Assembly (NCBI GenBank): GCA_021796015.1
Contig: JAJYOT010000013.1
Span: forward strand, 1-31,911
Source: a bacterium
GTDB taxonomy: Bacteria > Elusimicrobiota > Elusimicrobia > UBA1565 > UBA9628
DNA length: 31,911 nucleotides
Direction: 5' to 3'
Under the pieces are notes generated by a model, which was given only the letters and a program-made list of their open reading frames with translations, was not told the DNA's origin and did not search any database. Position numbers and translations under genes: made by a program. This document shows positions 1-29,308 of the stretch, one piece after another. Within the stretch, counting starts at the first letter, position 1; every line of letters begins with the position of its first letter.

Positions 1-1277
1 CAGAACACTTCCTCATTCATCCGCCTTTCTTTTTCTTCTTGGTTCTCGATAGAAGTTTTCCATTCTTTCTGAAATCCCTCTTGAAGAGCCTGAATTTCCG
101 ATTTCTTTTCCAGACGTAATTTCTCAAGGCTGGCCGCGTATTTTTCTTCGGATTCTTTTAACGAAGCCTTAAGCATCGCAACCTGCCTTTCATGAGAAGC
201 CTGAAGGCGCTCAAACTCTCCGTCTCTCTCGCGAATAATATCTTTTATTGTTCCGTCTTTCTCACGAACGACCGCTTCGACTTTCAATGAGAGTTCTCTC
301 TTGAGAACTTCCATTTCTCCCATCAATCGTCTTTCTTTATCTTCTTGATCTTTGAGAATTCTCCCTAAGCTTTCGGTTTCCCGTTTGGACACCTCCCGGG
401 CAAGACTGAGTTCGGCCTTAATCTGAGCGAACTCTTTCTCGCGCTCGACTAGATTTCCGGTGGAAATAGCTTGCTTACTCTCCAATTCCAGATTTCTCTT
501 TTCTATCTCCTTGATTTTCTCCTCAACCATTTTTTTCTCAATTACGACTTTCCCAAGCTCAATTTCGGAAGCCCGAAGTTTTTCGGCCACCATGCGCCAA
601 TTGCGCGCCTCTTCTTCCTTGGCAGACAGAGCTTTTTGCCACTGAGTTTTTTCTTCTAGCCAACGCCTCTCCATATCCTGAATACGCCCGACAAACTGCG
701 TCTCAAGGTCCTTATCCTGGGCCTCCCGCGACTGCATCTGGGATTTAAGAGTCGCAACCCAGGTTTCACGCTCTTGCGCCAAACGCCCCTCCATTTCGCG
801 GAGTTTATTTTCAAGGCGCAAACGAGACTCCTCGGTCTCCTGCTCCCGTCTTTCTCGACGAATTTTTTCCTGAAGGTCCTTAAGAGAAGATTCAACCTTG
901 GCGGAAGTGACGGCCTCCTGCTGATTTTTAAGCTGGGCCATGAGAACCTTTTCGCGTTCCTCTTGAAGCTTCTTTTCCAATTCCGATATTTTTTTCTCGA
1001 TATTGCCCTGCTCTGTTCCAGAAGACGGAGTTTGAGCGCTCGGATTGGACTTGGCTCCCGGCAAAGGCGGAAGAGACGGAAGTCCCGGCAAAGACGCATT
1101 TTTAGCGGTCGGAAGACCGGGAAGAGGCGGCAAGGATTTAGACGGCGCCAACGCATCCGGCGGAAGAAAAGGCGGAAGACCGGGGAAAGAAGCGTCTTTT
1201 TGAGCCGCGGAAGGATCCAAGGGCGCGCCCGGCAAGGGCGGCGGGAAATTCTTGAAATCTTTATTTTCTTCAGCCAT
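1..1277 (-). CDS. Proline-rich N-terminus plus long coiled-coil protein (partial, runs off the left edge)
   Basis: An uninterrupted minus-strand frame runs from an ATG at 1277 to the window edge, so at least 425 residues are present and the C-terminus is missing. The first ~100 residues are rich in Pro, Leu and Gly, with recurring PPLPGLP-type words. The rest is almost entirely Glu/Lys/Arg/Gln-rich heptad-like sequence typical of a long coiled coil, with no signal peptide or membrane segment, so it is probably cytoplasmic. AGGAGG lies 8 nt before the ATG, and the start overlaps the stop of the FliF-FliG fusion by 8 nt, implying translational coupling and a shared job. I do not recognise a family. 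A scaffold or filament working with the rotor-like protein is inferred only from operon position. The long open frame, good ribosome site and codon bias make the gene itself secure. Confidence 0.85.
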   Translation of the reverse strand, partial: MAEENKDFKNFPPPLPGAPLDPSAAQKDASFPGLPPFLPPDALAPSKSLPPLPGLPTAKNASLPGLPSLPPLPGAKSNPSAQTPSSGTEQGNIEKKISELEKKLQEEREKVLMAQLKNQQEAVTSAKVESSLKDLQEKIRRERREQETEESRLRLENKLREMEGRLAQERETWVATLKSQMQSREAQDKDLETQFVGRIQDMERRWLEEKTQWQKALSAKEEEARNWRMVAEKLRASEIELGKVVIEKKMVEEKIKEIEKRNLELESKQAISTGNLVEREKEFAQIKAELSLAREVSKRETESLGRILKDQEDKERRLMGEMEVLKRELSLKVEAVVREKDGTIKDIIRERDGEFERLQASHERQVAMLKASLKESEEKYAASLEKLRLEKKSEIQALQEGFQKEWKTSIENQEEKERRMNEEVF

Positions 1278-3321
1278 TGAGGTTTCCTCCTACCTGTGAT
1301 TTAAAACTTTCCACCCAAGCCTTGAGTTGAGGGTCGGGGTTTATTTCCAAAACTTTTTCGTAATGGGAAAGGGCCGCTTGAACATCTCCTTTCTGGTAAA
1401 GTAAGGCTCCTAAATATTGATGGGCCTGCCAAAGAAGGGGATTAAGAGTTAGAGCGGCCTCAAAATAGGAAATGGCCGCGTCCGTCTGTCCGGCCTGATA
1501 TTGGGAAACAGCCGCGTCAAAATAAGCCTGCGCCTTGGCCGGATCAGCGGCCACGGAAGGAGTCTCCGGCTGATTTTTCTGTCTCGCGCTTTGAAATCTT
1601 TTTTGACGCCTTTCCATCGCACTCAACTCTTCCTGCATTCCTTCCACCATGTCATAACCCTGTTGTCCTTGTTTACGAACTGAGATTTTCCCCTCTTTCT
1701 CAAGAGCTTTGATTAAATCCATGACCTTACTCCGCTCGTCTTCAATTTGATTGGGGTTCAAACTTTGGGTATATTCCATCGTTTCTTTAAGGAGACTCGC
1801 CGCCCCGGCCGACATACTGCTTAGGAATTTATTGAGAACCTCGGGCGGCGCTCCCGTCAAAGCGCGCGCCATTAAATCGGTCTTGAGTTCGCGAACAATG
1901 GTCTGCATATCGCGATCCGGAAAAGAAGCGATGTCCTCAAAGACAAGAATATGTTTTCGCACCGCCTCATAGACCAAAGGCTTCTCGTTTTTCAAGTAAT
2001 TTAAAATATTGGCGCGCGTCGCAGAATCAGACTCATCCAGCAAAACAACCAAGCGCTCAATTCCGCCGACCACAAAATCCACGTTTTCCTTAACGTCTCC
2101 GTCAATGGCAATCACCTGATCCCGGGTCACTTGCCGAACCGTCAACGCCTCAAGCGCGACCTTGGCCTGAAGATCAACCGGGAGAGAAGTCAAAAGTTGC
2201 CGCGCCAAATCAGGCTTAAGATAACTGGCAACGACCGCGACCACCCACGGCTCTTCTTTTCTCAAGATAAACATATACGCCAAACGCTTGACGTTTTCCT
2301 CGTTAATATAGGCAAACGGTTCGAATTTTTTCATTTCATCCTCCTCATCCGGCGGCGGGGGCGGCGGCTCATCCGGCTTTCGTGTAAAATTAATATCTAA
2401 TTTCCCCTCTTGGGTTAAAGCATCATCCCCCTCGCCCTCGCCTTCTTCGCCTTCTTTCCCAGTCACATCATTCATGTCAATATCCGAACTGCGTTTTTCC
2501 AACATCGCGCGGATATAGGCGCTTAGGAATTTACGCAAGGGCCCAAATAAAAATAGAAGGAGTAAAAGCAAAAGAAAGGCGTAGAGAAGCGGCAAATAGA
2601 CGGACGGCTTTTTAAGGTCTTCCTTCCAGTCATTCTTGATATGGGCAAAAGGCGTCGCGCGAAAGAAAACGTTGCCCGGCGCTAAATTATATTGCCCCAT
2701 CGCGTCGACAATGCGGCTTCGAACCATGTCCACTTGAGTTTTATCTTTCAACACGTTTTGATCATGGATGACGGTCACGGTCAGTTTCTTGAAAACAGGG
2801 TTGACCGCGTAAGTTTCCTGCTGAATTCCCTTCGACTCTTTCGCGGCTTGAGCGGCGGCGGAAGCCGGCGGGGTTTTCGGCCCGCCCGCGGTAATGGCGG
2901 TTGGTTTGGGAATCCCCGGCATGACGAAATTGGTGTTCATGTTCGCCCCGTCATTTGGGCCTTTTTTTTGATGATATTTTTGCGCTTCCCCCACGCCTTT
3001 TCTTGTCGAGTGTTCGCTTTCAACTTTGACCGACATGTCCACATCGACGAAAGCGACGGCTTCTCCAGGGCCCAGAATAGGGTCCAGAATTTCATCTTGT
3101 ATTTTTTTCTCCGACTCCGCCTTAATGCGGTTTTGTTCCTTGAGAAGATCAATGTCCGGAGCGACGAGTGGAGCGGCATGAGCGCTCCTAAGCGCTACGG
3201 AAAAGAAAATGAGAAGAAACGCGATTTTTTTCATCGAATTTTTATGCGCAAATCGTCTTAGCGCATTTGACATAAGTGTAGACTCTGGTGATGACATTTT
3301 CAAGTCTTTAGAATATTTCAT
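1270..3321 (-). CDS. FliF(C-terminal)-FliG-TPR fusion protein, non-flagellar rotor-like
   Basis: This 683-residue inner-membrane protein joins three modules. Residues 30-50 form a signal/anchor segment (MKKIAFLLIFF...). Residues ~60-230 match the C-terminal extracytoplasmic part of flagellar FliF (ILDPILGPGEAVAFVDVDM, then YAVNPVFKKLTVTVI), followed by a TM helix at ~242-260. After an acidic and polyproline linker (280-330), residues 340-547 match the FliG middle and C-terminal domains (VFEDIASFPDRDMQTIVREL; LNKFLSSMSAGAA). Residues 595-665 hold two to three TPRs. The N-terminal FliF ring-building domains are missing. By hand alignment, the E. coli FliG torque residues K264, R281, D288, D289 and R297 become T489, G506, E513, T514 and N522, so classical stator coupling looks lost. 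The gene starts 3 nt after the barrel gene stops. The ATG at 3234 (MKKIAF) is an alternative start giving a cleaner signal peptide; neither start has a clear Shine-Dalgarno. Domain calls are solid; the function is inference. Confidence 0.88.
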   Translation of the reverse strand: MKYSKDLKMSSPESTLMSNALRRFAHKNSMKKIAFLLIFFSVALRSAHAAPLVAPDIDLLKEQNRIKAESEKKIQDEILDPILGPGEAVAFVDVDMSVKVESEHSTRKGVGEAQKYHQKKGPNDGANMNTNFVMPGIPKPTAITAGGPKTPPASAAAQAAKESKGIQQETYAVNPVFKKLTVTVIHDQNVLKDKTQVDMVRSRIVDAMGQYNLAPGNVFFRATPFAHIKNDWKEDLKKPSVYLPLLYAFLLLLLLLFLFGPLRKFLSAYIRAMLEKRSSDIDMNDVTGKEGEEGEGEGDDALTQEGKLDINFTRKPDEPPPPPPDEEDEMKKFEPFAYINEENVKRLAYMFILRKEEPWVVAVVASYLKPDLARQLLTSLPVDLQAKVALEALTVRQVTRDQVIAIDGDVKENVDFVVGGIERLVVLLDESDSATRANILNYLKNEKPLVYEAVRKHILVFEDIASFPDRDMQTIVRELKTDLMARALTGAPPEVLNKFLSSMSAGAASLLKETMEYTQSLNPNQIEDERSKVMDLIKALEKEGKISVRKQGQQGYDMVEGMQEELSAMERRQKRFQSARQKNQPETPSVAADPAKAQAYFDAAVSQYQAGQTDAAISYFEAALTLNPLLWQAHQYLGALLYQKGDVQAALSHYEKVLEINPDPQLKAWVESFKSQVGGNLNG

Positions 3322-3324
3322 TTT

Positions 3325-4938
3325 TTATTGCGCCTGCATGAATTGGCGAACCTCTTTATTGTGCGGGTCAAGCTCCAAAACCCGCTTCCAAACGGCAATC
3401 GCTTTTTGCTTTTGATCCATCAGATAAAAAGCGCTGCCTAAAATCTCAAGGGCGGTCACATTGTTGGGCTCCAAATCCAACACGTCTTGCGCGCGCCTTA
3501 TCGCCGCGTCATAGTGCCCCTCATAGACCGATTGGCGGGCGTCGTACACTTTTTGATCAACCCAGGTAAACTGCTCCGGCCCCCCGACGCGGCGGGTGAG
3601 TTCCGTCACATGAGCCGCCTTCTCAACGGCGTTGAGAAGAAGAAGCAGTTTTTCATCTTTCGGGTTTTTGTTGTAGGCATATCTCAAGGCATTAACCGAA
3701 CCTCTGAGATCGTTTCCATCCACAAACAAAACAGCGCCCTTACGTAAAAAGGTTTGGAATTCTTCCCCGCCGGTCGCCTGGGGAACGTGATCCGTGACCG
3801 TTTTAAGCCGTTCGAGCATTTGTTGAATGCGCCTGTTGCCCGGTTGAATATAAAGCGCTTCTTTAAAGCGCGCCTGGGCCAGGGTAAAGTTCCCTTCCTG
3901 CAAAGCCTCAAAAGCGGTTCTCAAAACCGCTTTGACCTTGGCATTGGTATTGGCGCTTTTGCTTTCACCGAATTTAAACCCTAGAGAAATTTTCGTGCTG
4001 GTTCCCAAGTTGCCGATTCCCTCGGCGACATCCACTTGGAAAGTTTGAAAATCAAGGCCGAAGCCGAAATCAGTCTCTTGAATTTGAGGAATACCCATCA
4101 AACCAAAGCGAAACGCGAACCATTGGGACAAATGATATTCTCCTCCGAAATTGACGTCCAAACCCGGGGTCAGGGGCTTATTGAGGTCCATGTCCAAAAT
4201 CAAGCGATCATGGAAAAGTTCGACGGCATTTCCCATTCTGACGATCACCGGGTATTGATCGCTGGTCGCTCCCGCGGTTCTTGAAAACGCGTTTTGAACG
4301 CCCAAGCCCAGGTGATAAAATCCGAAAGTCTTGAGCATTCCGATATTGAGGGCTTGGGTGGTGCTTCCATAGCCGGCCAGGCTGTTTGAAATTTCCTGGA
4401 CCGTCGCGCCGAAAGAGGTCGTCTTGGTCAGGCTTTTCGCCCAAGAAAAACTAATCGCCTGCTGAGCGTTGGTAAAAGATCCCTGGGAGGTCAGTCCCGT
4501 CAAGGTTCCTTGCTGATTATAGGTCGCGTTCTCATTTTGAAACCCACCGGCTGAGAGTTTCGTAAACGATCCCGCGAAAGTGCTTCCTCCTTTGAGCGGT
4601 TGCGCATAGGCCAAATAATCCAAAGTCGTCTGTTGTGGCAAGGCCCCGTCCATTAAGGTCAGCTGCTTTCTTTGAAGTTGCGCAAGTCCCGCCGGGTTCC
4701 AGTTTCCAGCCGAAGCATCATTGGACAAGCCGTAAAAAGCGCCGCCCATGGCCAAGGCTTTGGCGCCGACGCCGTAGAGAAGAAAATTTCCCGGAAGTCC
4801 TCCAATAGCGCTTTGAGCCAAGAGTTGGGAAAACGCCGGCAGGGAAAGGAAAACAAGAAACCCCGCAGAGAGAATTCTCCCTGCGGCAATACGCGCCTGT
4901 CTATAATACGACAGGCCTCTCGCCTTAGCTTGGGCCAT
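3325..4938 (-). CDS. PorV/UPF0164-like outer-membrane beta-barrel with C-terminal TPR domain
   Basis: The 537-residue protein begins with a basic n-region and hydrophobic segment ending near FSQLLAQS, a signal peptide for export. Residues ~45-75 carry the hallmark of PorV/UPF0164 barrels (GVGAKALAMGGAFYGLSNDA, then NWNPAGLA). Alternating, aromatic-rich strands continue to ~325 (for example FAFRFGLMGI, DFGFGLDFQTFQVDVAEGIG). Residues ~330-375 and ~460-533 are TPR-like helices (ARFKEALYIQPGN; AIAVWKRVLELDPHNKE), presumably periplasmic. PorV proteins in other bacteria act as outer-membrane shuttle or assembly factors, for example in type IX secretion, but barrels of this family also occur without it. 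The gene is first in the operon with the FliF-FliG fusion, which places an outer-membrane partner beside an inner-membrane rotor-like protein. The ATG at 4938 abuts the structured leader, and a second ATG at 4942 is out of frame. Confidence 0.85.
   Translation of the reverse strand: MAQAKARGLSYYRQARIAAGRILSAGFLVFLSLPAFSQLLAQSAIGGLPGNFLLYGVGAKALAMGGAFYGLSNDASAGNWNPAGLAQLQRKQLTLMDGALPQQTTLDYLAYAQPLKGGSTFAGSFTKLSAGGFQNENATYNQQGTLTGLTSQGSFTNAQQAISFSWAKSLTKTTSFGATVQEISNSLAGYGSTTQALNIGMLKTFGFYHLGLGVQNAFSRTAGATSDQYPVIVRMGNAVELFHDRLILDMDLNKPLTPGLDVNFGGEYHLSQWFAFRFGLMGIPQIQETDFGFGLDFQTFQVDVAEGIGNLGTSTKISLGFKFGESKSANTNAKVKAVLRTAFEALQEGNFTLAQARFKEALYIQPGNRRIQQMLERLKTVTDHVPQATGGEEFQTFLRKGAVLFVDGNDLRGSVNALRYAYNKNPKDEKLLLLLNAVEKAAHVTELTRRVGGPEQFTWVDQKVYDARQSVYEGHYDAAIRRAQDVLDLEPNNVTALEILGSAFYLMDQKQKAIAVWKRVLELDPHNKEVRQFMQAQ
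4841..4916 (-). other. Two hairpins at the start of the barrel coding sequence; the second is terminator-like
   Basis: Just inside the coding sequence a 7-bp stem GCCTGTC/GACAGGC (4895-4916) is followed by a second dyad, CCGCAG...CTGCGG around GAGAATTCTC (4863-4886), then a T-rich stretch on the minus strand (4860-4841). Its form is that of an intrinsic terminator or attenuator downstream of the riboswitch-like leader. The T tract is interrupted by C and G, and no good alternative start codon with an intact signal peptide lies downstream. It may simply be structured coding RNA. Confidence 0.35.
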
Positions 4939-5176: not shown

Positions 5177-6688
5177 TTACAGACCACCCATCCCGCCTCC
5201 CTGATAACCTCCATAGCCTCCGTAACCCCCATAGGAAGGATAGGCATAGGGATTAGGATTGACTTGAGCATTCGGATTGGTCCAGTCCGGGGGATTCCCG
5301 TAAAACATCGTCGCGGGCCACTGCTGGCCTGGCGTCAAATATCCCGTCATTGCGCTTAAGAGCCCCACCGCGCCGGAGAGCATGAATATCGTGGTCAGCG
5401 TTGATCCAGCAGTACTTCCAGACCCAACCTCATTGAATATTCCGCCTGCGGCAATAGCCGCTCCCGCAATCCCGATAAATACTCCAGCCATGAGAAAGGC
5501 CCCTCCCTGAAAGGATTGACCGTATGTCCCAGCGCTGCCCATTTGATGTCCCAAGTCGGCGATAAAACCGCCAATCGCCATAATCACGGCTCCAAGAACG
5601 CCTAAAATAATTCGGGCTGTGGCAGGACTTAAAGAAGCTGGCGAAGCTGTCGAAACTTTATAAGCCGCGAACATCAGCCCGGCGGCCAACAAGGAGAGCA
5701 TGGTCGCCAGATTAATCGCGCCCTGCCAAGGCGTCACATTGGTGCCATTATTCATGCCATTATTCATGTTGTTGCCGCCTTGAGGAGAATATTGCCCACC
5801 GTAACTGGACGCATTGGGAAATTGAGTCGGAGCCCCGCTTCCCGCTCCACCCACTCCACTTCCACTGGGAACGCCAAGACTGGAAGCGCGCGACCCATCA
5901 AAAAGGCCGTTTCCAGGAACGTTATTAGGGCCCATACTTCCGTATCCCGTTCCCGCGCCATTCATGGCCCGAAAACCTCCGCCCCCACCGCCGCCCGATC
6001 CAAATCCCCTTCCTGCCAAAGCGCCATGAGGCGCCCCCGAACCGACCCCTCCAGGCAAGCCGCTGGCCGCCAAGGCATGAACCGGCGCGGCCTTTTTCGC
6101 GGGAGCGGCGGCGCCCTTCGCATTCAAATTTGAGAGTTGTCCGATTTTGCTCGCCCCGGCGAGTTTTGGCATAATCTTAGGTCCCTTGCCGCCAAAAGCT
6201 TTGCCAAGGTTGGGAGATTTGGGAGCCGCTCCTATCGCCGCAGACGCAACCGGGGCGGCGCTTGCGAGGGCCGCCGCTTGTCCCATGGCCCCTTGATTTG
6301 CCTGGCTAAGTTCTCCTAACGACGATTGTCCCGAACCCTGGGATTTACCGCCATTGCCGCCTTGGGCCGCCCCGGAATTAGACGAAGCCGGCTTTGGTTG
6401 AAAAACCTGAAAATGAGAATGCGCCTTATCTCCGGGCCCAGGCCCCAAGACCTTGTATCCCAACCAGCCCACGCCTCCGGCAATCGTCGTCCCCGCCAAG
6501 GCAAGAGCCACAACGCCCGCCTTTGTCGCCAAAATTCCCCCGGAAGTCGCCGCATCGATCAAACCGCCTAAGCCTCCGGAAACGGCTTCCCCCTCCGCCG
6601 CATTCCAACCCAAAGCGCTGAGAATTCCGGCAATGCCGGTTTTTTCTCCTTTATTAATTTTAGGACCGGAATTTTGTTTGGTTTCCAT
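5177..6688 (-). CDS. Gly/Ala-rich multi-pass membrane protein of unknown function
   Basis: The 503-residue protein has a short N-terminal cytoplasmic-looking region, one hydrophobic segment near residues 58-82 (GVVALALAGTTIAGG), a very long low-complexity region rich in Gly, Ala, Ser, Asn and Pro (~85-320), and about four hydrophobic segments near the C-terminus (INLATMLSLLAAGLMFAAY; IILGVLGAVIMAIGGFIA; FLMAGVFIGIAGAAIAAG; FMLSGAVGLLSAM). The tail is Pro/Asn/Tyr/Gly-rich with YGGYGGYGG repeats. AGAGAGG sits 6 nt before the ATG. It lies 17 nt downstream of the other Gly/Ser-rich gene, clearly one transcription unit, and just upstream of the rotor-like operon. I recognise no family. The composition suggests an envelope component or a flexible surface or adhesion element, but that is only a guess. 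Confidence 0.78.
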   Translation of the reverse strand: METKQNSGPKINKGEKTGIAGILSALGWNAAEGEAVSGGLGGLIDAATSGGILATKAGVVALALAGTTIAGGVGWLGYKVLGPGPGDKAHSHFQVFQPKPASSNSGAAQGGNGGKSQGSGQSSLGELSQANQGAMGQAAALASAAPVASAAIGAAPKSPNLGKAFGGKGPKIMPKLAGASKIGQLSNLNAKGAAAPAKKAAPVHALAASGLPGGVGSGAPHGALAGRGFGSGGGGGGGFRAMNGAGTGYGSMGPNNVPGNGLFDGSRASSLGVPSGSGVGGAGSGAPTQFPNASSYGGQYSPQGGNNMNNGMNNGTNVTPWQGAINLATMLSLLAAGLMFAAYKVSTASPASLSPATARIILGVLGAVIMAIGGFIADLGHQMGSAGTYGQSFQGGAFLMAGVFIGIAGAAIAAGGIFNEVGSGSTAGSTLTTIFMLSGAVGLLSAMTGYLTPGQQWPATMFYGNPPDWTNPNAQVNPNPYAYPSYGGYGGYGGYQGGGMGGL

Positions 6689-6705: not shown

Positions 6706-7689
6706 TTAGGCCGCTAGCCCTATTCCCCCTAAAACTGCCTTGACAACTCCCCCCGTGACTCCGCCGACCAGGGCCATCATCAACATCGTCATGATTTGCT
6801 GCATCATGCTGGGCTGCTGCGCCATCTGAGGCGGCATCGCCGGAACCGCATTTGGTTTCGACTGATTTAGTTTTGGATTATTCGCCTTGAGATTCATCGG
6901 GGTTCCTTGCCCAATTCCTATCGCATTCGACATCCCTTTTGGATTTTTAATCAGACCCGCCCCTATCGCGCCTCCATCAAAAACTTGAGATGACAAGGCC
7001 CCAGATTGGGTTCCGTTTAAAGCCAAGGCCGCCGATTTCATTTGAGCCGCCGCGTTCTTTAAAGCTCCCATCGCGCCCCCGCCGTTGGATTGAGAAGAAC
7101 CTCCGCCGGAGGTTCCATGAGCATAACTGATTCCAATCTTGGGCGTATGGGATCCGAAACCGCTTAAACCCCCGCCCGAAGATCCGCCGGACGGAGCGAT
7201 GGAACCCTCGCTCCCGCCAAGACCCGAGAGGCTGGAAAAATTTCCCTTGGGAAATGCGACCGATAAAGCCGGGGGAGCCGCCGCAGCCGCTCCTGTTTGC
7301 CCACGAGAAGCCAAACTCGCCAAGGCATCCGCCCATTGAGAAGATTTTTTGCCTGATTTTTTCGGCGAAGACGCCACCGCTGATTTACTTGTAGACGGAG
7401 GAGAAAAAAGCAAGGAGGCAAAAGGGTCGATCAAAGCTTTTTTGCCATAGGCCTCAAAAGATTTCATCGACAAATCCACGGGGCCACCAGGAGCGCCGTT
7501 GGGGTTCTGGGTCGAATCCAAACTTTGATTCACTGGGTGAAGCCCTTGTTCAGCCCCGGCAATGGAAGCGCTGGAAGAAGAGTTAAAGGCCGGATAACAC
7601 ACCCACAAACCCACGAGTCCAAAGGCCAACAGAATCAGCCACCAATATTTCTTGAACGGGTCGGATTGTTTCTTGATGATGAAGGTCAT
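6706..7689 (-). CDS. Single-pass Gly/Ser/Ala-rich membrane-anchored protein of unknown function
   Basis: I chose the ATG at 7689 (MTFIIKKQSDPFKKYWW) because GGAAGG lies 5 nt upstream; a TTG at 7719 would add ten residues without a ribosome site. The 327-residue product has an N-terminal anchor (WWLILLAFGLVGLWVCYPAF), then a low-complexity region rich in Ser, Gly, Ala and Asn, and a Met-rich hydrophobic C-terminus (IMTMLMMALVGGVTGG) that could be a second membrane or amphipathic helix. Most of the chain should lie outside the cytoplasm. It shares composition with the next gene 17 nt downstream, so the two were probably made to work together. No known domain is recognised. Its promoter shares a -10 with that of the barrel/FliF-FliG operon, which suggests co-expression. 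Confidence 0.75.
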   Translation of the reverse strand: MTFIIKKQSDPFKKYWWLILLAFGLVGLWVCYPAFNSSSSASIAGAEQGLHPVNQSLDSTQNPNGAPGGPVDLSMKSFEAYGKKALIDPFASLLFSPPSTSKSAVASSPKKSGKKSSQWADALASLASRGQTGAAAAAPPALSVAFPKGNFSSLSGLGGSEGSIAPSGGSSGGGLSGFGSHTPKIGISYAHGTSGGGSSQSNGGGAMGALKNAAAQMKSAALALNGTQSGALSSQVFDGGAIGAGLIKNPKGMSNAIGIGQGTPMNLKANNPKLNQSKPNAVPAMPPQMAQQPSMMQQIMTMLMMALVGGVTGGVVKAVLGGIGLAA

Positions 7690-7751
7690 GGTTTCCTTCC
7701 GTGTTGATTCTGGAGCCAACCATTCCCTCGCTTAGGCTCGGTCATACTCTG

Positions 7752-15880: not shown

Positions 15881-16687
15881 CTAAAAAGCGGCCGAAACCG
15901 ATTGCGCCGAGTTCATGGGAACAGAGCAATCCCCGTCTCCAGAACAAGCTCCGCCCCAGCCGGTAAACGACGAGCCGGCTTCCGGCGTCGCGGTGAGGCC
16001 GACTGTCGTCCCCGGCGCGAAAGAAGCCGAACAGGCGCCGGAACCTCCGGCCCTACAGTCGATTCCCGAAGGAGAGCTTGAAACTTCCCCGTTTCCCGAG
16101 ACGGAAACCGTCAATGTATGCGCGGCGAGATTAAAGGCCGCGGTAATGGATTCGGGCGACCGGCTTGAAACCGCGCACGCGCCCGTTCCGGAACAGCCGC
16201 TTCCGCTCCAGCCGGCAAAGACCGACCCCGAGGCTGGAACGGCGGTCAAGGAAACTTGAGTTTGAGGGGCGAAACTCGCCGAACAAACGCTCCCGCAATC
16301 AATTCCTTGGGGACTGCTCGTAATGGATCCGTTTCCCAGGCCCGACAAGGCAACCGTCAATGAGACGGCGTTAGAGTTTTCGCTGTTAAAGGCCGCAACC
16401 GCCGATTGAGGGGTTATGCTGCTAATCGAAATGAGGCACACTCCGGTTCCCGCGCAATCTCCTCCCCAACTCGCAAGCACGGACCCAGGATCCGGGTTGG
16501 GAGTTAAGCTCACCTGGGTCCCGGCGGGATAATCGGCGGAACAGATATTTCCGCAGTTGATTCCTGGGGGAGAACTGATGATCGTCCCGGAACCGGTTCC
16601 ATCGGATGAAACCGACAGCTGCCCCGAAGGAGCGGCAAAAAGCGCCGGGGAAGCTATTACAAACGCGGCGGCAAGAACGGATTTCAT
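15881..16687 (-). CDS. Secreted protein with three Cys-containing InlB-type B-repeat-like domains
   Basis: I take the ATG at 16687 (MKSVLAAAFVIASPALFA) because it opens a clean signal peptide; upstream codons in the frame lack one. The mature ~250 residues hold three ~75-residue repeats of the pattern LxVxxxGxGxIxSSPxGIxC...CSAxFxPxTxVxLTAxPxxGSxFxGW...CxGxGxCxVxxxxxxSVxAAF, akin to the divergent InlB B-repeat (beta-grasp) family seen in surface proteins. Each repeat carries paired cysteines, probably disulfides. No anchor or sorting signal is seen at the C-terminus, which ends right after the third repeat. It may bind cell walls or other cells, but this is inference. It converges with pyrB at a 2-nt gap. 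Confidence 0.8.
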   Translation of the reverse strand: MKSVLAAAFVIASPALFAAPSGQLSVSSDGTGSGTIISSPPGINCGNICSADYPAGTQVSLTPNPDPGSVLASWGGDCAGTGVCLISISSITPQSAVAAFNSENSNAVSLTVALSGLGNGSITSSPQGIDCGSVCSASFAPQTQVSLTAVPASGSVFAGWSGSGCSGTGACAVSSRSPESITAAFNLAAHTLTVSVSGNGEVSSSPSGIDCRAGGSGACSASFAPGTTVGLTATPEAGSSFTGWGGACSGDGDCSVPMNSAQSVSAAF

Positions 16688-16764
16688 ATCCTTTTCCAGG
16701 ATAGCAAAGCGTCCGCATGTCCGCAAACTCAATCGGCGCTTTTGAGAGTTTGTAGAATAGGCGG

Positions 16765-27780: not shown

Positions 27781-29308
27781 CTAGCGAAGCTTGAGATTAT
27801 CGGAAGAAGAATCTCGCGGCAGAAGCTGGGGGTCCTGATTGCGGGAATCGAGATGGGCGGCGTCTTCAACCTGTGGTTTTAAATAGCCGTAGAGAGAATG
27901 AAGGGTGACATGGTCGTCCGCGTTCAGGGCCGCGCCGTTCAAGCCCTTCAAAAGATAATAAGTAAACGCTCCGTGGCGCTTGTCTTCTAAGACGCCGGAA
28001 ATTTGATCGGCTTTAGAAGCGGTTAAGACCAAAAGTTTTCCCGTGGGTGAAACGGTTCCCTCTTTGATTTGGTTGACCAAGGGCCTTGCGCCCTTGGCGA
28101 TCACCGAACGCCCGCCCGCGCCCGAAAAACAGGAGTCCAGCATCGCAATGACCTTTTTGGCTTTAAGACGCGAGAGATGAGCGTAAAGGCGGCTTAAGGG
28201 ATAGGCGGTGTCGGCGAGATCGGAAGGGTCGCCGTCAAAACCAACGAGATAAGCCTCTCCTGTTTGCGGGTCCGGTGCGCCGTGGCCCGAGAAGTAAAAA
28301 TAAACGTGGGAATCAGGTTTTACGTTCATGGGAAGCCAGCGCTCGATATTTTTGACGAGTTCGCTTCTTCCGGCGCGGTCATTAGACAAGAAAACGATAT
28401 GCCGGGCGGGAACGCCCAAGGCTCTTAAATGTTTAAACACGGCCTTGGCGTCGTTGGTTGCAAATTCAGCGGGAGGAAGGTCTTCGGCGTATTTCTCGAC
28501 TCCGACGACCACTGCGAAATCATCCGAATGAACCGGTTCCGAATAGTTCGGCGTGTTGACGGAGACAGATCCTTCATTATTATGGTTTAGGCCGGAATCC
28601 GAACCTCCATAACGGGTATGAGCTTGAGCCAAATCGGGGGATATTTCCGAACCTCTATCCCCTGGGACAAGACTCCTAAAAAAATCGCGGTCTCGTATCA
28701 TATCGCCAGTTATTTTCGCGGCTAAATTAGCAACAGCCGATTGAGCGGCCGAATTTTCCCAATACCCAGCCGCAAAGGTCTGAAGAGAAGCAGTAATAGA
28801 TATACTCTCGGTATAAGTTTTGAGCGTTTGTCCGCTGGGCCTAGAGACGACCGCCGCTATAGTTTGTGAATAGGCGTTTGGATAGTTCCAATAAATTCCA
28901 CAACCAATTATCAGTGGATCACAAAGCGGGAAAAAAAGTAAAAACGCTTGGAATGGAATTGTTAAATTGAGAGCGAAGAGAATAAAGTTTAATCAAAATA
29001 TCAAAATTGGATTTTCCATCTAAGGGGTGAATTTCTTTAACTTTCCCAAATAAGCCTGCGGATTGGAGAGTAGTCCCGAAAGTATTCATTTGTTTTTCAG
29101 AAAAAGACGGGAGAACAAAAACCCTTCCAAGTATATTTTTGCGAACAGGCATGGAAATATATCCGACATTAAGCGGTAACGGTCGCGCATTGGCTGAGGG
29201 AAAAGATTCAGGAGCTTTGGGGCTGATTTCATAGTCGCAGGCGTTAAATAAAACAGGGCATAGAATTAAGGCCGCCACCCATCGGGTTAAGATTGGAGAT
29301 TTCTTCAT
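27781..29308 (-). pseudogene. Secreted/lipoprotein-type protein with C-terminal caspase domain, split by a homopolymer frameshift
   Basis: The 5' part (29308-28919) starts with a signal of lipoprotein type (MKKSPILTRWVAALILCPVLFNAC, Cys24) and a ~105-residue domain with SMPVRKNILGRVFVLPSFS and NFDILIKLYSLRSQF. At a run of seven T (minus strand, 28937-28931) the frame is lost. Removing one T gives FTFFPLCDPLIIGCGIYW and a frame with no stop through 28702 into the caspase-like part (28701-27781). That part has a C14-type fold with FAVVVGVEKYAED, catalytic His (YFYFSGHG) and Cys (IAMLDSCFSGAGG). The restored protein is ~508 residues. Prokaryotic caspase homologues cleave after basic or acidic residues. 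Frame breakage may be real, phase-variable or an assembly error. Confidence 0.82.

Follow-up and report, generated by a model that had tools for sequence, protein, structure and literature searches.

A FliF-FliG-TPR fusion protein in the Elusimicrobiota as the probable rotor of a non-flagellar, MotAB-driven envelope machine

The flagellar rotor protein that receives torque is FliG. In the window, a stretch of 31,911 nucleotides from an elusimicrobial genome, a single open reading frame joins parts of FliF and FliG to tetratricopeptide repeats (TPRs), and its product is probably the rotor of an ion-driven, non-flagellar, peptidoglycan-anchored rotary machine of the envelope that acts on an outer-membrane barrel resembling PorV. 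The motor itself is well supported, by directly observed domain content, gene order, co-occurrence with MotA, the lack of the flagellar genes tested, retained channel residues and purifying selection; ring formation, rotation, contact with the barrel and the output (gliding, secretion or adhesin movement) I infer. An earlier sequence-only reading of this DNA had likewise proposed a non-flagellar envelope machine made from rotor parts, beside a barrel and a coiled-coil protein, and this part of it stands, whereas the loss of stator coupling that it also proposed is not supported. I know of no non-flagellar FliG/MotAB machine that has been described, and the module was not found described in the open-licence PMC literature searched.

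The rotor gene (1270..3321; all features given here lie on the minus strand) encodes 683 amino acids. Homologues of 654 amino acids imply that translation probably starts at M30 (position 3234), after which a signal peptide was recognised by eye. Residues 57-222 (2656..3153) match the FliF RBM3 domain with its collar insert, in the order alpha-beta-insert-beta-alpha-beta, by the fold of the predicted structure and by alignment motifs. Thus the S-ring domain, predicted to form a ring in the periplasm, remains in a protein from which, on the earlier reading, the ring-building part of FliF was gone. RBM1-RBM2 (YscJ/SctJ-like) are absent among the Pfam families listed for the rotor, and there is no space for them ahead of residue 57. 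A hydrophobic stretch seen by eye at residues 239-280 (2482..2607) would form a transmembrane helix and its continuation. It is followed by the FliG middle domain at residues 334-406 (2104..2322), with EEPW in place of the E. coli EHPQ motif, the FliG C-terminal (torque) domain at residues 443-547 (1681..1995) and TPRs, predicted to be cytoplasmic, at residues 592-681 (1279..1548).

Both FliG_M and FliG_C score above their Pfam cut-offs and the predicted fold agrees, so that the fusion of a FliF membrane part, both FliG domains and TPRs is borne out by sequence and by predicted structure; the model of the torque domain lies 1.3 A from a MotAB-bound FliG structure. The profile check proposed earlier succeeds for the FliG domains and the TPRs in the window protein, whereas PF08345 exceeds its cut-off in relatives only and stays below it in the window protein itself. 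FliG-N is not above the cut-off in the rotor's class, and the FliG equivalog TIGR00207 scores below its cut-off for the rotor (93.8 vs 226.7 bits). As the model of the whole rotor has a pTM of 0.33, the packing of the domains is uncertain. In word-limited searches for relatives beyond the phylum, in which most matches are nameless, the named ones came from Elusimicrobiota/Endomicrobia, apart from flagellar FliF proteins.

The outer-membrane barrel that was previously noted upstream is PorV/PorQ-like. Its gene (3325..4938, 537 aa), with C-terminal TPRs according to TPR profiles, matches family NF033709 with an E-value of 1e-24 and 87.6 bits, just under the cut-off of 90, and its stop lies 3 bases ahead of the rotor reading frame. 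Downstream, a gene for a protein with a proline-rich N-terminus and a long coiled coil (1..1277), truncated by the end of the window, shares 8 bases at its start with the end of the rotor gene. A consensus scan of the region for promoters and terminators gained little. Two further genes, for a glycine-rich (5177..6688) and a glycine/serine-rich protein (6706..7719), are found beside the operon in close relatives only (L001, L002 and L011) and do not belong to its core.

The window stops ahead of the position at which close relatives, one of them with a rotor 94% identical, continue the operon. The order barrel, rotor, coiled coil, MotA, MotB is complete in 11 of the 16 orthologous loci (L001-L016), and the other five end at contig ends; with MotAB just past the window-edge position in these relatives, loss of the stator is ruled out, and by synteny the window's own genome, which is outside the genome sample, presumably carries MotAB too. 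A more distant subgroup of the rotor's class, class A, has a different arrangement. In ten stretches of about 20 kb around its rotors MotA is absent, the barrel adjoins the rotor in 10/10, and for these ten rotor loci MotA-MotB is found elsewhere in the genome. Two class C loci (L034 and L035) show no clear barrel, but the sequence of L034 breaks off immediately ahead of its rotor.

Among 149 sampled Elusimicrobiota genomes of unstated completeness, FliG_C is present in 48, MotA in 51 and both in 48 (Fisher p 6e-36). With three FliG_C rows under the cut-off omitted, as well as the 14 lowest rows of MotA fragments, 84 of 117 FliG_C matches have MotA within 10 kb and 33 have none. Conversely, no FliG was found in the stretches of about 17-20 kb around eight MotA-MotB pairs, MotB adjoining MotA at 8/8 of these rotor-unlinked loci, which, together with the unlinked rotors, rules out a strict operon linkage everywhere. 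Several paralogous systems contain FliG, MotA and MotB, some of them with two MotB genes.

The other flagellar genes tested are missing from nearly all carriers. FlhA (PF00771) was found in one of the 149 genomes (G038), hence in none of the 47 other FliG_C genomes, and the FliM/FliN C-terminal domain (PF01052) likewise in G038 only. PF02154 (FliM) matched none of the 149 and misses even G038, and as it is therefore a weak marker, PF01052 was relied on instead. The rod family PF00460 was matched in G038 and, a single time, in G104, a genome without a FliG_C match. Accordingly, 47 of the 48 FliG_C genomes lack all three of these families (FlhA, FliMN_C and rod), and all 48 carry MotA. G038 is the sole truly flagellar genome among them; its FliG is an ordinary frame of 356 amino acids and no barrel match was found in the flagellar stretch examined. 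An ordinary flagellar FliG is thus ruled out. The earlier reading had named a full flagellar set with MotAB in one genome as evidence against itself; what the sample contains, except in G038, is MotAB without the flagellar genes tested.

The fusion protein is genuine and conserved, and it evolves under purifying selection. Values of dN/dS range from 0.006 to 0.08 for rotor, barrel and MotA, ruling out a pseudogene, and the torque domain is under tighter constraint than the rotor as a whole. FliG and MotA distances correlate (Mantel r 0.84, with 0 of 2000 permutations as high), and their clusters agree (ARI 0.84).

At the E. coli positions 264, 281, 288, 289 and 297 the rotor has T, G, E, T and N, just as first read. 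Stator coupling had been judged probably lost from this, but MotA and MotB stand in the same operon at L001-L016 wherever the contig reaches and elsewhere in ten distant class A genomes, and the relatives' stator comprises full-length MotA with P173 and P222 and MotB with a peptidoglycan-binding OmpA domain. Both prolines are kept in 95/95 distinct FliG/MotA pairs, and the channel aspartate in 114 of 131 MotB (E. coli excluded). These pairs come from loci with linked MotA, unlinked rotors and MotA being outside the counts, and include one flagellar pair (G038); repeated places (L018-L028, L092), L017, E. coli loci and any FliG without a MotA of at least 230 amino acids in the stretch were left out, one FliG was taken per MotA (96 reduced to 95), and E. 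coli was added as reference. In class A, a basic residue 90 and Glu 288 occur in 26/26 pairs, preserving the R90-D288 contact in the form K/R-E, position 281 is Gly in 26/26, and E98 has become Gln in 18/26. Class C retains R281, D288 and E98 in 5/5 pairs without a basic residue 90, and in 7/10 class D pairs both partners of the 281/98 contact are basic. The pattern tracks clades, of which there are about seven. Of the 21 pairs that lack a basic residue 90, 18 likewise have an acid at 288/289, which is therefore no specific response to residue 90. Although the classical torque residues are mostly replaced, stator function looks kept, and the rotor-stator contacts look rewired rather than lost. 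A regular expression for measuring the MotB linker fitted only 11 of the 134 MotB and was set aside.

In the proposed machine, the signal peptide would send the rotor N-terminus out, the RBM3 domains would build a periplasmic ring resembling the S-ring, and each subunit would span the inner membrane by one helix. FliG-M and FliG-C would form a ring at the cytoplasmic face; being fused directly to the S-ring, it would need neither FliF-FliG docking nor FliM/FliN. MotA/MotB, anchored to peptidoglycan through the OmpA domain of MotB, would conduct ions and push FliG-C, so that the ring in the periplasm rotates and acts on the TPR-containing barrel encoded just upstream. As output, something at the outer membrane may be moved or energised, be it surface proteins in gliding or a secretion process. 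In the cytoplasm, the TPRs at the C-terminus and the proline-rich coiled-coil protein probably place or switch the motor.

Alternatively, FliF, FliG and MotAB could be decaying leftovers from a flagellum that has been lost, retained fortuitously or for some remaining function as a channel and no longer a motor. The flagellar genes of G038 mean that the ancestor may have been flagellated, the classical torque charges are largely gone and MotAB has drifted from the rotor in some genomes. However, strong purifying selection, several paralogous systems, invariant channel prolines and stable non-flagellar partners, above all the barrel, make a remnant highly improbable. A second possibility is a tensile force transducer or gated pore of the TonB/TolA kind, in which MotAB drives and the FliF/FliG fusion is a non-rotating scaffold tying stator to barrel. 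The known 5:2-type motors ExbBD and TolQR energise the outer membrane without FliG (PMC12204202), and class A retains only one of the two classical stator contacts. I nevertheless consider this unlikely, as a scaffold would not need a torque domain modelled so close to MotAB-bound FliG, nor its being more constrained than the whole rotor, nor matching rotor and stator trees, nor a retained S-ring domain.

The output could also be type IX-like secretion, a special case of the rotary machine in which FliG/MotAB replaces GldLM and powers a PorV-like barrel with an SprA-like translocon; I give this a small but real chance. The barrel adjoins the rotor, SprA-like matches are present in 129/149 genomes (48/48 with FliG_C vs 81/101 without), and GldL is above the cut-off in 0/149, with one weak match in G039. 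However, no SprA match reaches the cut-off of its family, most genomes without the motor have such matches as well, genome size confounds the excess seen in the 48/48, and none of the 14 control genomes supplied a positive control for SprA or GldL; the link is suggestive only.

The non-flagellar rotary reading suggests that bacteria have reused the motor of the flagellum to power a different process at the cell surface, and the family offers a concrete test case, across the phylum, of FliG-C inherited together with its stator and without the rest of the flagellum. I regard it as an evenly balanced question whether this is an undescribed type of organelle, in which the flagellar rotor-stator core gave rise to a family of rotary machines, each self-contained and spanning the envelope (S-ring-FliG rotor, MotAB stator, PorV-TPR barrel), with several kinds per cell and a rewired contact of its own in each; class C, with FliG-N, RBM3, R281, D288 and E98, may then record an intermediate from a flagellum-like ancestor. 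The natural contact variants, which have given up one or the other of the classical salt bridges, are useful for the question of torque transmission.

With the flagellum the machine shares the RBM3 domain, FliG-M, FliG-C and the stator features described above. In contrast to the flagellum, the rotor is one polypeptide, without RBM1/RBM2 and, in its class, without FliG-N above the cut-off; the EHPQ motif is changed, the torque charges are rewired, barrel, TPR and coiled-coil partners are present, and FlhA, FliMN_C and the rod family were not found in the carrier genomes. The MotB linker is shorter than in C. sporogenes MotB. The Agl-Glt system of Myxococcus (AglRQS) and GldLM of Flavobacterium also energise a surface process with a 5:2-type ion motor, and the two MotB genes of some paralogous systems are a further likeness, but they are not known to have FliG or an S-ring rotor. 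The barrel resembles PorV/PorQ of type IX secretion in matching NF033709 and related models, and differs in its added TPR domain and in the lack of GldL above the cut-off in the phylum sample. A natural FliF-FliG fusion is found in the Chlamydiaceae, in a bacterium thought to be non-flagellated; as described there, what lies in the cytosol corresponds to the M region of FliG, and the only flagellar genes named are FliF, FliL and FlhA (PMC4768692). Compared with the fusion in that account, the elusimicrobial system additionally has FliG-C, TPRs and MotAB.

The rotor gene, a fusion of FliF, FliG and TPR parts at 1270-3321 on the minus strand, encodes 683 aa, and homologues of 654 aa suggest M30 as its real start. 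Pfam matches are FliG_C (E 4e-25), FliG_M (E 4e-9) and TPRs, YscJ_FliF_C scoring no better than E 0.15, and the best flagellar PDB match is the M and C domains of Thermotoga maritima FliG (E 2e-31). The NCBIfam FliG equivalog gives 93.8 bits versus a cut-off of 226.7, so that by this rule it is related to FliG without being one.

In the window, 3 bases separate the stop of the PorV/PorQ-like barrel gene from the rotor ORF, and the rotor and Pro-rich coiled-coil genes overlap by 8 bases. As the window ends inside the coiled-coil gene, I infer that its MotAB lie beyond that end. In L002, an orthologous locus with a rotor 88% identical to that of the window, the coiled-coil gene is followed by a full MotA (PF01618, E 2e-26), for which every one of ten PDB matches is a flagellar MotA/PomA chain, and by MotB (plug E 2e-11, OmpA E 6e-18). 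The full set, ordered barrel, rotor, coiled coil, MotA and MotB on one strand, is found in 11 of 16 orthologous loci, including L011 (rotor 94% identical to the window's), and the five incomplete ones (L001, L003, L007, L009, L013) are cut by contig ends; among the 16, MotA is split over two frames in L005, as is the barrel in L012, and the L004 barrel is truncated where its contig begins. Between the window and L002, L004 and L011, rotor dN/dS is 0.06-0.08 (FliG-C part 0.02-0.03); values are 0.02-0.03 for the barrel, 0.006-0.011 (L002-L011) and 0.043 (L002-L006) for MotA and 0.036 for MotB, the coiled coil being under looser constraint (0.15-0.36).

Other genes were noted around these operons. 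A caspase-like (C14) gene in the window (27781-28701, minus strand) is 45% identical to the one 3' of MotB in L002 (16490-18085), and L004 and L011 also carry a caspase-like gene there. After the MotAB and caspase genes, all three loci have a DUF4384 protein; the one in L002 (18259-19254) matches FlgT_N weakly (E 3e-4). The window protein at 15881-16732 (minus strand) has three matched stretches of Flg_new_2, a divergent InlB B-repeat domain.

The sequence-only reading named five changed torque residues (T, G, T and N at E. coli positions 264, 281, 289 and 297, E at 288), which is correct against E. coli K-12 FliG. However, its proposal that stator coupling was probably lost is not borne out by 95 linked FliG/MotA pairs, whose contact pattern I read as rewired clade by clade, not lost; the pattern spans about seven clades, too few for the pairs to be counted as independent events. 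In the window's own class A, all 26 pairs have Gly at FliG 281, Glu at 288 and a basic MotA 90 (Lys 24, Arg 2), with Gln (18) or Glu (8) at MotA 98. All five class C pairs have FliG Arg 281 and Asp 288, MotA Glu 98 and a non-basic MotA 90, and 7/10 class D pairs are basic at both FliG 281 and MotA 98. MotA 90 is basic in 74/95 pairs, 66 of which have an acid at FliG 288 or 289; the same is true of 18/21 pairs without basic MotA 90, so an acid at these positions does not in itself indicate a response to residue 90.

MotA P173 and P222 are conserved in all 95 distinct sequence pairs, and the channel Asp of MotB in 114/131 rows, E. coli excluded. Two or more MotB lie near one MotA in 37 loci (e.g. 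L036, L041, L048, L051, L056, L060), and in 16 of these the Asp of one copy is replaced (by Asn in 10, Gly in 4, Ser in 1 and Ala in 1), which suggests asymmetric B dimers. The FliG and MotA trees are concordant (Mantel r 0.84, 0/2000 permutations; ARI 0.84).

A flagellar remnant is unlikely. Among 149 genomes from the phylum of the L002 genome, FlhA and FliMN_C were found in G038 only, and the rod family in G038 plus one match in G104 (C31:2499-2591), a genome without FliG_C match; this is possibly contamination or a stray gene. FliG_C occurs in 48/149 genomes and MotA in 51, both in 48 (Fisher p 6e-36), no FliG_C genome being without MotA. The FliG frame of G038 is 356 aa long, with no barrel match in the flagellar stretch fetched from that genome; frames in the other 47 genomes mostly have 450-700 aa, with as many as five per genome.

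MotA lies within 10 kb of 84/117 over-cut-off FliG_C matches (the G038 pair included), and is absent at that distance for 33. Two sets of unlinked genes were fetched: ten rotors lacking a nearby MotA, and eight class-A-type MotA lacking a nearby FliG. Each of the ten rotors is directly preceded by a barrel gene (538-625 aa, E below 1e-130), with a coiled-coil-type gene farther along, and no MotA was found in these stretches; MotB adjoins all eight MotA, with no FliG in the fetched stretches. They therefore represent a distant part of class A (L121-L138) in which barrel and rotor stay together and the MotA-MotB pair has been relocated, which weakens the view of one operon and strengthens the barrel-rotor link. 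At L031:9791-10477 (G004) lies a FliG-M/C fragment of 228 aa that is akin to the class A rotor, with neither MotA nor MotB in the fetched 19.9 kb.

The simplest account is that a dedicated, peptidoglycan-anchored MotAB drives the rotor, whose periplasmic output acts on the PorV-like barrel; that the machine rotates, how large its ring is and what its output is are presumed here, and a non-rotating scaffold is a less likely alternative. The machine may also have a type IX-like secretion role. SprA-like matches that stay below cut-off, the majority in frames near 1800 aa, occur in 129/149 genomes, and GldL over cut-off in 0/149, possibly reflecting a type IX-like translocon minus its known motor. 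However, SprA-like matches are also present in 81 of the 101 motor-less genomes. In the open-licence literature searched I found no description of such a FliG/MotAB module. The closest natural case found there is the Chlamydiaceae FliF-FliG(M) fusion (PMC4768692); the puzzle is named in an ISME J 2025 survey (PMC12199754), and Elusimicrobiota go unmentioned in the main text of an mBio 2025 MotAB survey (PMC12505986).

Several systems can be told apart by gene order and trees. In class B the rotor is directly followed by MotA, often with two MotB, class C rotors additionally carry FliG-N (precomputed Pfam), and classes D and E differ in gene order and strand. A barrel-part profile matches in 20 of the 35 linked-pair loci that span 9.5 kb or more and in 5/60 shorter ones, many of which stop before reaching the barrel gene. 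The 15 long loci without match are the flagellar L039, class C L034 and L035, nine of class E, L033, and L093 and L118, whose fetched stretches begin within the barrel gene; the class E 20-kb loci L030, L032 and L044 all have a match. One database protein, P0167 (818 aa), combines FliF_C, FliG_M, FliG_C and histidine kinase domains (precomputed Pfam), and appears to be a rotor fused to a kinase.
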